This document shows, one piece after another, positions 44,850 to 47,427 of a DNA stretch of 64,000 bases (position 1 is the first letter of the stretch; every line of letters starts with the position of its first letter). The DNA is from Agrococcus sp. (lineage in GTDB: Bacteria > Actinomycetota > Actinomycetes > Actinomycetales > Microbacteriaceae): positions 1 through 64,000 of the forward strand of contig JAPSIA010000002.1 in NCBI GenBank assembly GCA_031179215.1, written 5' to 3'. Made by a program: the position numbers and the translations under genes. Below the pieces are notes generated by a model. It worked only from the letters and a program-made list of their open reading frames with translations. It did no database searches and was not told the DNA's origin.

Positions 44850-45311
44850 TCAGCGGCGGGCGGCGAAGAACGCGCGCAGCTGCGCCTCGGCCTCGTCGGC
44901 GAGCACGCCCGCGACGACCTCGACGCGGTGCGGCAGCCGCCGCTCGCGCAGCACGTCGACGACGCTGCCCGCGGCCCCCGCCTTCTCGTCCCACGCCCCG
45001 AAGACGACGCGCTCGACGCGGCTCGCGAGGATCGCGCCGGCGCACATGACACACGGCTCGAGCGTGACGACGAGCGTGCATCCGTCGAGCCGCCACGAGC
45101 CGCCGCGCGCCGCCGCCTCGCGCAGCGCCACGACCTCGGCGTGGGCCGTCGGGTCGTGCCGAGCCTCGCGCTCGTTGCGGCCGGTGCCGATGACGGTGCC
45201 GGATGCGTCGACGACGACCGCGCCGACGGGCACGTCGGCGGTCGTCTCGGCCGCCGCGGCCTGCTCGAGCGCCAGGCGCATGAGCGCCTCGTCGCGCGCC
45301 GCTGGCCGCAT
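44850..45311 (-). CDS. tadA: tRNA-specific adenosine deaminase / nucleoside deaminase
   Basis: 153-aa cytidine-deaminase-fold zinc enzyme. Zinc and catalytic motifs are [13 protein letters not shown] and [14 protein letters not shown], with the TadA-like PVGAVVV start. It converts A34 to inosine in tRNA-Arg(ACG). ATG 45311 was picked where homology begins; the ORF-track start at 46370 is antisense to upp. It is divergent from upp across 87 bp. Confidence 0.92.
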
Positions 45312-45398: not shown

Positions 45399-46037
45399 AT
45401 GCGAGTCCACGTCGCCCACCACCCGCTCATCACGCACAAGCTGACCGTGCTGCGCGATGCGGCGACCCCCTCCCCCACGTTCCGCGCGCTCGTGGGCGAG
45501 CTCATGACGCTGCTGGCCTACGAGGCCACCCGCAACGTGCGCGTCGCGCCCAAGGAGATCCGGACGCCCGTGACGACCACGACGGGCGTCGCGATCGCTG
45601 AGCCGCGGCCGCTCGTCGTGCCGATCCTGCGCGCCGGCCTCGGCATGCTCGAGGGGATGACGGCGCTCGTGCCGACCGCCGAGGTCGGCTTCCTCGGCAT
45701 GGCGCGCAACGAGGAGACGCTCGAGCCCGCGACGTACGCCGAGCGGCTGCCCGACGACCTCTCGGACCGCCAGTGCTTCGTGCTCGACCCCATGCTCGCC
45801 ACGGGCGGCTCGCTCTCCGGCGCGATGCAGTTCCTGTTCGACCGCGGCGCGGTCGACGTCACCGCCATCTGCCTGCTCGGCACGCCCGAGGGGCTCGCGC
45901 GCGTCGAGCGCGAGATGGAGGGGCGCGACGTGACCGTCGTGCTCGGTGCGCTCGACGAGGGCCTCGACGAGCGCGGCTTCATCGTGCCGGGCCTCGGCGA
46001 CGCGGGCGACCGGCTCTACGGCACGGTCGGCGACTGA
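45399..46037 (+). CDS. upp: Uracil phosphoribosyltransferase
   Basis: 212 aa. Starts [20 protein letters not shown]; the PRPP loop [17 protein letters not shown] and the uracil-binding C-terminus [17 protein letters not shown] are intact. It salvages uracil to UMP. ATG 45399. The adjacent divergent tadA-upp arrangement is a common actinobacterial neighbourhood. Confidence 0.95.
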
Positions 46038-46088: not shown

Positions 46089-46118
46089 TTGACATCGCGC
46101 GACCGAAGCGGCGATACT
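46089..46118 (+). promoter_or_regulatory. Consensus sigma-70 promoter for a leaderless ORF
   Basis: TTGACA (46089-46094), 18-bp spacer, GATACT (46113-46118). The expected transcription start, 7-8 bp after the -10, coincides with the ATG at 46126, so the transcript should be leaderless. It is one of the few clear consensus promoters in the window. Confidence 0.7.
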
Positions 46119-46125
46119 GGCAGGC

Positions 46126-46221
46126 ATGACGACCACCTTCCGCCCCCAGTCCGTCCTCGCGACGAACGGGACGAACGGCATGATGATGCCGATGGTCGAC
46201 ATGCGTCGAATGTGTGCTTGA
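46126..46221 (+). CDS. Leaderless Met-rich 31-aa micropeptide
   Basis: Too short for the ORF track. It codes MTTTFRPQSVLATNGTNG followed by MMMPMVDMRRMCA: seven methionines in 31 residues and one Cys next to the end. No ribosome site precedes it, but the ATG sits exactly where the strong promoter should start transcription. The winged-helix gene begins 226 bp downstream on the same strand. Leaderless short ORFs in actinobacteria often act as translation-sensing leader peptides; an upstream attenuator for the regulator gene is possible. No homology is claimed. The downstream 46222-46447 shows no ORF and only weak hairpins. Confidence 0.5.
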   Translation: MTTTFRPQSVLATNGTNGMMMPMVDMRRMCA

Positions 46222-46447
46222 GCGCAGCTCGCACCGCCCGACCGCTCCTTGAGGAGTCGCTGACGCGCTCGCGTCGCACGCCTCCGGCCTGAGCAGCCAC
46301 CGGGTCCCCACCCCGGAGCGGTCGCAGAACCAGCAGGTTCGCCCCGACACCTCGACCTCGCGGTCGACACCCCTCGTCGACGGCCTCATCGCCCTTGCCC
46401 GCGCACGCGCGGCTCGGTCGCCGCCGACTCACGCCGGAAGGCCCATC

Positions 46448-47185
46448 ATGACCATCACCGACATCGCCGCTCCCCTCGCCACCCGCACCCGCCGCCCCTC
46501 GCGCGAGCACGCCGCCTTCGGCTCGAGCGCGACCAAGGGCTCGACCGCCCTCGCACCCGAGCGCATCCGCCCCGCCGCCCCTGCCTCCAGCCCCGTGCGG
46601 GCCGTGCCCGAGGGCACCGAGGCGCGCGGCTTCGTGCTCTACGTCGGCCTGGGCGAGGACGCCGCGGCCGCCGACCGCGTCGAGCTCGCGCGCCTCGTCG
46701 GCGAGCTGCGCGCGCTGACCGCGAAGCTCGCGCCGAGCGCGCAGACGCACGCCGCGGTCGCGCTCGCGCCGGCGGGCGCCGGTGGCCGCGACGTCGACGT
46801 CGTGCGTCGCGCGCTCGGCGACCCTGCCGTGCAGCAGCCGGCCACCGAGGCCGACGCCGGCATCGTCATCGACCTCACCCGCAAGCGCGTCGCGCTCGGC
46901 GACGAGATCGCGCCGCTCACCTACCGCGAGTTCGAGCTCCTGCAGCACATCGTGCTGCGCGAGGGCACGACGGTCGGGCGCTGCGAGATCATCGACGCGC
47001 TGTGGGACGCCGACGCCGCGGACCGACCCAACGAGCGCACGATCGACGTGCACGTGCGCCGCCTCCGCGCGAAGCTCGGCGACTATGCAGAGATCATCCG
47101 CACGGTGCGCGGCGCCGGGTACCGCTTCGACCGGCACGCCGACGTCACCGTGCTCGCGAGCGGACCGAGCCCCGACCGCTTCTGA
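46448..47185 (+). CDS. Winged-helix regulator (OmpR/PhoB-type DNA-binding domain) without receiver
   Basis: 245 aa. The C-terminal half is a Trans_reg_C winged helix: LTYREFELLQHIVLREGTTV, RTIDVHVRRLRAKLG and the wing IRTVRGAGYRFD. The N-terminal 135 residues are not a receiver domain: no phosphorylatable Asp triad is visible; there is a basic disordered head and an alpha/beta segment (GFVLYVGLGEDAAAADRVEL). The signal input is therefore unknown. ATG with GGAAGG upstream. No histidine kinase gene is adjacent. This architecture recurs in Microbacteriaceae as far as I recall. Confidence 0.85.
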   Translation: MTITDIAAPLATRTRRPSREHAAFGSSATKGSTALAPERIRPAAPASSPVRAVPEGTEARGFVLYVGLGEDAAAADRVELARLVGELRALTAKLAPSAQTHAAVALAPAGAGGRDVDVVRRALGDPAVQQPATEADAGIVIDLTRKRVALGDEIAPLTYREFELLQHIVLREGTTVGRCEIIDALWDADAADRPNERTIDVHVRRLRAKLGDYAEIIRTVRGAGYRFDRHADVTVLASGPSPDRF

Positions 47186-47260
47186 GGGCGCGGGCCACAC
47201 ACCACAGGAAGATCACAGGGCGTTCTAGGCGCGCTCGTTATCGATCCGTTATATCGTCGA

Positions 47261-47358
47261 AGCACGTTGATCGTAGTGCTGTGGCGGTCAGCGGAAGCGA
47301 TGGTCATGCCTCGCTTGGTGCAAGGGACTGGGGCCGGCTGAGGGGACTCGGCCGGCCC
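47261..47358. other. Intergenic stretch with three consecutive stem-loops
   Basis: Between the winged-helix gene and the convergent hydrolase: AGCAC/GTGCT (47261-47280), AAGCGA/TCGCTT (47295-47316) and GGGCCGG/CCGGCCC (47331-47358). An AT-richer segment (TTATCGATCCGTTATATCG) lies just upstream and could hold a -10. It could be a small RNA with its terminator, or simply the terminator region. No ORF fits. Confidence 0.35.
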
Positions 47359-47427
47359 TCTGCACGTCGCGGCGACGGCGCGTTGGCATGCCGCTCCCGC
47401 TCCTGCCGGAGTGCCCCTCGCCGCTCC

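Follow-up and report, generated by a model that had tools for sequence, protein, structure and literature searches.

The 64-kb window, by which we mean the whole stretch of Agrococcus sp. DNA that was analysed, carries a short methionine-rich ORF between upp and a gene for a winged-helix transcriptional regulator. The locus is composed of the following features:

44850-45311, - strand: tadA, tRNA adenosine(34) deaminase, divergent (NF008113 above cut-off; 75/79 loci)
45399-46037, + strand: upp, uracil phosphoribosyltransferase (TIGR01091; near the regulator gene in 76/79 loci)
46089-46118, + strand: sigma-70-type promoter TTGACA-N18-GATACT (motif search and conserved TTGAC spacing)
46126-46221, + strand: leaderless 31-codon leader peptide ORF MTTTFRPQSVLATNGTNGMMMPMVDMRRMCA
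46180-46191, + strand: Met run ATG ATG ATG CCG (M19-M21, P22), from the Agrococcus alignment
46207-46215, + strand: invariant core CGA-ATG-TGT (R28-M29-C30), from codon counts over 104 leaders
46436-46441, + strand: Shine-Dalgarno sequence GGAAGG of the regulator gene
46448-47185, + strand: winged-helix (OmpR/PhoB-type) regulator of 245 aa, a candidate sulfur-metabolism regulator (PF00486 Trans_reg_C, E 7e-20)

The promoter consists of a -35 element at 46089-46094, a spacer of 18 nt and a -10 element (GATACT) at 46113-46118. It is the only sigma-70-like site in the 3.5 kb between 44500 and 48000, where shuffling gives an expectation of 0.0. Because the ATG at 46126 sits 7 nt past the end of the -10 element, transcription is predicted to start at 46125/46126, that is, at the A of the ATG or the adjacent position. 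The ORF encodes seven Met and ends with RRMCA; at the local Met frequency of 2 %, the probability of at least six further Met in 30 residues is about 2e-5. All three elements that the original prediction had placed here, namely this promoter before the ATG, a 31-aa ORF with seven Met and a receiver-less winged-helix gene 3' of it, were thus found as described.

Trans_reg_C is the sole match of the regulator in Pfam, with no match to a receiver domain, and an orthologue is present in 156 of 160 Microbacteriaceae genomes. GlnR is the nearest to its DNA-binding domain among solved structures. The solved relatives match the C-terminal domain, and the N-terminal region of about 130 residues gave no matches and is modelled with low confidence by AlphaFold.

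The order tadA(-), upp(+), leader, regulator(+) is kept in 75/79 loci. The tadA and upp genes are thus divergent beside the leader, and TadA makes the inosine required for reading CGA, a codon that is fixed in the leader. On the other side of the regulator gene, 21 of 24 Agrococcus genomes contain a conserved element of about 110 nt (47228-47370 of the window, + strand), which begins with CACGTTGATCG at 47263 after a promoter-like stretch and which in three congeners (L022-L024) ends with a perfect intrinsic terminator. The element has no match in Rfam, and a pattern search of 60 family genomes found it in Agrococcus only. We consider it a candidate small RNA.

Conservation of the leader peptide and its codons

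The ORF, the promoter spacing and the position before the winged-helix gene are shared by all 24 Agrococcus genomes examined, with an ORF length of 31-32 codons in each. We found the leader in 78 of 79 further loci, nearly all from named Microbacteriaceae and including Cryobacterium, Leifsonia, Clavibacter, Agromyces, Leucobacter, Curtobacterium and Herbiconiux. Overall, a short 5' ORF biased in Met/Cys codons, the hallmark we took for an attenuator, is present in 104 of 105 loci (the Agrococcus set, the 79 further loci and two more). Such conservation puts the Met-rich ORF far beyond chance and suggests that it is translated. In 89/104 leaders the distance from the first base of TTGAC to the start codon is 36-37 nt, compared with a shuffle mean of 9 that counts any TTGAC in the same stretch, indicating that the leaderless geometry is conserved beyond the ORF alone; this geometry places the start codon at the predicted +1. 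No leader was seen in seven of 20 reduced or low-GC genomes, and the 13 leaders from such genomes show CSRMC, CRRMC, NRMC and TSRMC variants while retaining CGAATG.

The family consensus is approximately MTDNARTLTSFEALGNAGMMMPGRAVMCCRMC[AR], ending in ...GMMMP..AVMCCRMC[AR]. The peptides mostly have 26-37 residues and no signal sequence, their N-terminal half is strongly divergent, and residues such as TSFEA and GMMMP are conserved across the family. Within Agrococcus, M19, M21 and P22 are found in 24/24 genomes and M20 in 23/24. The leader in the window is a Met-rich, Cys-poor variant of the consensus with a single Cys, and its clade lacks the paired Cys (RRMC). The leader always precedes this winged-helix gene and never directly precedes cysteine or sulfur enzyme genes. 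Searches with the leader peptides in NCBIfam and of Rfam matched no family. Additional matches to the leader core in the same genomes resembled chance matches in coding frames, which suggests one leader per genome.

The comparison of related genomes shows that Met codons are kept across loci, the outcome that the original prediction required. The GMMMP run is common, yet nine of the 104 leaders (L091, L095, L104, L115, L116, L123, L125, L129 and L135) lack it, all of them retaining CCRMCA, and we therefore reject the Met run as the sole sensor. A GGCAUGAUGAUGCC hairpin as an explanation for the Met run is weakened by leaders with GMMMA, which keep the Met without full pairing.

The most constant part of the leader is the Arg-Met core, where CGA and AUG are each found in 104/104 leaders and are followed by Cys in 97/104. 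For comparison, CGA accounts for only 85 of 2646 Arg codons (3.2 %) in the regulator genes. Likewise all 16 Cys in the regulator genes are UGC, while the leaders favour UGU, both at the last Cys (64/97) and before the CGA (68/85). The fixed CGA and the preference for UGU indicate selection on the codons or the RNA beyond the peptide alone. Since the family-wide constant part is the C-terminal (C)C-CGA-AUG-UGY and not the Met run, the Cys codons and the fixed CGA carry no less weight than Met. The first idea of a Met-rich leader is largely right but incomplete.

Why a rare CGA persists without exception in more than 100 otherwise diverging leaders is a question that can be tested. Our tentative working explanation is slow decoding of the core, where the rare CGA and the Cys codons, mostly UGU, have probably been selected to be slow. 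It is conceivable, if improbable, that CGA-AUG-UG represents a novel type of programmed pause, one that would sense the state of tRNA-Arg(ICG), for example its TadA-made inosine-34, in addition to Met/Cys supply. A single leader would then combine signals from sulfur amino acids and from tRNA modification in the control of a sulfur regulator. Pairing of the core with the UTR as the cause of the CGA invariance was unsupported in Microbacteriaceae.

Other Micrococcales families also carry Met/Cys-rich short ORFs before the related gene, though of different sequence, such as VNKNSTAPAAA...RCCRMHA in family f6, VTNNDVMFF..QRMPMLCVRDLTC in f7, ...MMCSMMMMCMMMRMMRRQPSL in f12 and ...MPMCRCACCCQN in f9. 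Their Met/Cys-rich parts read ...DMRCCRMHA, ...QRMPMLCVR.., ...MMCSMMMMCMMMRMM.. and ...MPMCRCACCC... The orthology of the f12 and f9 genes is less certain because they are more distant (E about 1e-30 to 1e-45). In f6, core-UTR pairing reached p<=0.05 in 7/10 leaders. Nearly all f6 leaders read (L212-L252) have a core UCGAAUGC with a complementary GCAUUCGA about 85 nt downstream, possibly forming an alternative helix. Four f12 loci (L028, L241, L244 and L245) have Met-rich short ORFs ending in RRQPSL/HRQPSL before the distant winged-helix gene, as in the example given above, and in L241 and L244 a GUCAGCCG / CGGCUGAC helix lies 3' of this ORF. These may represent a separate class of methionine leader.

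RNA between the ORF and the regulator gene

To describe the RNA downstream of the ORF we compared 16 Agrococcus leaders for four proposed helices, H1-H4, which in the window are found together with a C-rich region:

46214-46234, + strand: hairpin H1 over the last codons and the stop codon, GUGC..GAGC / GCUCGCAC (8/8 pairs kept in 16 leaders)
46240-46323, + strand: long helix H2, GACCGCTC (46240-46247) / GAGCGGTC (46316-46323) (100 % paired, 2 two-sided pairs)
46327-46340, + strand: hairpin H3, GAACC / GGTTC (98 % paired, 2 two-sided pairs)
46338-46415, + strand: C-over-G bubble, a possible Rho loading region (99.7th percentile)
46376-46428, + strand: hairpin H4, GTCGACGGC / GCCGCCGAC (94 % paired, 2 two-sided pairs)

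Jointly, 97.8 % of the cells in H1-H4 are paired and six pairs show two-sided changes. None of 500 shuffles reached as high a covariation, and sliding the partners left 0-1 two-sided pairs. H1 is invariant and therefore uninformative for covariation. H4, in which the window has one mismatched position, ends just before the Shine-Dalgarno sequence, which is GGAAGG in nearly all Agrococcus and GAAAGG in L013.

The leader UTRs are C-rich and G-poor, with a C/G ratio of 1.5-1.7 compared to about 1.0 in the leader ORF. The bubble in the window ranks in the top 0.4 % of 78-nt windows on the + strand of the 64 kb. A C-rich, G-poor leader is compatible with a putative Rho-dependent termination in the GC-rich members. 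Rho-dependent termination has earlier been proposed for cys leaders in Mycobacterium (PMC1262725). Our search for intrinsic terminators in the window and the other GC-rich members found none. The AT-richer congeners L022-L024 have a stop-codon hairpin analogous to H1, with a compensatory change (GUAGU/ACUAC versus GCAGU/ACUGC), followed by an intrinsic terminator AACCGGCGG...CCGCCGGUUUU. Masking the last codons leaves the fold of this terminator unchanged, and in the leaders examined no alternative pairing could be assigned to a mutually exclusive antiterminator or antisequestor.

A direct-repeat box and a putative sulfur regulon

A direct repeat with a 10-bp period of the OmpR type, GTCACR-N4-GTCACA, is found upstream of the leader in 19 of the 24 Agrococcus genomes. 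Related repeats are found in 24 of 80 other loci, some of them overlapping the -35 element or the spacer, for a total of 43/104 leaders with a box or near-box at the leader promoter; the shuffle control gave a mean of about 0.0-0.2. The window's own leader promoter has no recognisable box, suggesting that autoregulation may differ in this strain; the same genome has boxes at metN and at a metE-like gene.

We searched whole genomes for the box and found further copies in most matching Agrococcus genomes and almost none with the reversed control. Among 20 non-leader sites read, 18 adjoin sulfur genes: eight metE-like genes, two of a second metE-like type, metN (two), metQ (one), O-acetylhomoserine sulfhydrylase, three msuE / NtaA-DmoA monooxygenase pairs and a cystine-type binding protein. 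The metE-like label comes from similarity to MetE-like sequences, L256 itself having no family match, and when independent gene groups are counted the 18 sites amount to about seven. The remaining two sites lie within or next to unrelated genes. Applied to other genera, this search gave few sites, in 16 of 80 genomes, with two control matches. About 9 of 15 of these sites are at sulfur-linked genes, with targets comprising metF, CBS/cysK, metQ with an SfnB-like gene, a second SfnB-like gene, metE-like genes, an OsmC-like gene and a cystine-type binding protein. In family f6, the box search found the leader itself only.

The original prediction saw in the leader a new regulatory link to the winged-helix gene. 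The link appears to go deeper than that, as the box shared by the leader and the sulfur genes suggests that the regulator itself controls methionine, cysteine and sulfur genes. Its placement at the regulator's own leader and the type of repeat are what point to the winged-helix protein as its putative ligand. On this sequence evidence the protein may well be a sulfur/methionine regulator under its own control, and the gene controlled by the leader is probably a sulfur regulator.

Proposed mechanism, alternatives and related systems

We consider it likely that the interval acts as a leaderless attenuator with a Met/Cys leader peptide, and that the gene under its control encodes an OmpR-type candidate sulfur regulator. 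The Met- or Cys-sensing leader first proposed for the winged-helix gene is the best-supported reading, with the correction that the Met run is not its constant part. Transcription would start at or beside the AUG of the 31-codon ORF. Under a shortage of charged Met- or Cys-tRNA, the ribosome would slow at the Met run or at the Cys-Arg(CGA)-Met-Cys core, altering the folding of the stop-codon hairpin and the downstream leader. This altered folding would give RNA polymerase and ribosomes access to the winged-helix gene, 226 nt further on, so that a shortage of Met/Cys-tRNA would raise regulator expression. The protein would then most likely bind the GTCACR-N4-GTCACA repeats before methionine, cysteine and sulfonate genes. 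The sensing of Met/Cys supply, the direction of the response and the Rho- or translation-based control in GC-rich members are steps that we infer.

One alternative is a uORF attenuator of the whiB7 type that reports translation stress or antibiotics, where the Met/Cys bias would be incidental to an arrest sequence; the leader could respond to generally slow ribosomes or encode a specific arrest peptide with the CGA-AUG core. The leader resembles such a system in that its most constant element is the C-terminal R(CGA)-M motif and not a run of one residue, and in that other residues (TSFEA, GMMMP) are conserved; whiB7 is itself a transcription-factor gene under a uORF attenuator (PMC13236596). 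We nevertheless judge this explanation unlikely, since the Met and Cys enrichment outlasts the replacement of the remaining peptide in other families and the putative targets belong to sulfur metabolism, not to ribosome protection or efflux. The CCRMC of a Met/Cys-rich C-terminus, a cation-efflux gene nearby in 57/79 loci and the precedent of CutF (PMC9973294) might also suggest a metal sensor, the nascent peptide binding Cu(I)/Zn(II) and modulating translation like CutF/CruR-type peptides. The leader peptides, short and without a signal sequence, are unlike the exported CutF, the clade of the window has lost the paired Cys, and the putative regulon is sulfur metabolism, which makes this explanation highly improbable.

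We give even less weight to the ORF encoding a small protein with a function in trans, placed before the regulator gene by simple operon structure. Its strongly conserved length in Agrococcus and the GMMMP and RMC residues would be expected of a protein, but fixation of the CGA codon and the UGU preference are needless for protein function, the N-terminal half diverges strongly, and the ORF is always before the same one gene with a structured UTR next. A further alternative concerns the regulon half of the claim only: the GTCAC repeats may belong to another regulator, for example a GlnR-like one, that controls both the sulfur genes and the winged-helix gene, the latter having another role. GlnR boxes have similar half-sites (GTnAC-n6-GTnAC; PMC10704036), and the box missing from the window's own leader promoter is in line with this. 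The repeat period is however 10 bp (n5) compared to 11 for GlnR, the candidate protein itself carries a GlnR-type DNA-binding domain, and boxes or near-boxes recur at its own leader promoter, leaving this alternative doubtful.

Taken together, the Microbacteriaceae leader is probably a gauge of sulfur amino acids that is read by the ribosome, and methionine and sulfur genes are probably what the regulator switches. If true, a large actinobacterial group would gain a candidate master regulator of its methionine/cysteine metabolism; the open-licence literature searched describes no sulfur regulator of such kind for this group. It would also constitute a two-layer design, in which the leader, read by the ribosome, determines how much of a transcription factor is made and this factor in turn sets the sulfur genes. 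Our open-licence search found no paper describing this leader or regulator.

The closest precedents are the polycysteine leaderless short ORFs of mycobacteria, which are cysteine-responsive attenuators (Seliverstov 2005, PMC1262725; Shell 2015, PMC4633059; also Canestrari 2020, as cited in PMC9031893). Both systems have a leaderless uORF, Cys codons at its 3' end, a link to sulfur genes and GC-rich members without an obvious terminator, for which Rho or translational control has been suggested. The leader of the window is not a member of that class, as it has no Cys run and is not followed immediately by a sulfur enzyme gene. Its codons mix Met with Cys, its core is Cys-Arg(CGA)-Met-Cys, it precedes a transcription-factor gene and not an operon of enzymes, and an intrinsic terminator is present in three congeners. 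Control of a transcription-factor gene by a uORF attenuator is what likens the leader to whiB7/wblC, whose regulon includes amino-acid supply genes (PMC13236596). Here the transcription factor is of another family, the whiB7 leader sequence is absent and the putative signal is sulfur amino acids. Finally, GlnR is the orphan OmpR-family nitrogen regulator of actinobacteria (PMC10704036; PDB 8hml, 8hig). Our candidate is likewise an orphan OmpR-type regulator, with GlnR as its closest solved DNA-binding domain and GTnAC direct-repeat half-sites, while differing in that no receiver-like domain was detected, the box period is 10 instead of 11 bp and the putative targets are sulfur rather than nitrogen genes.
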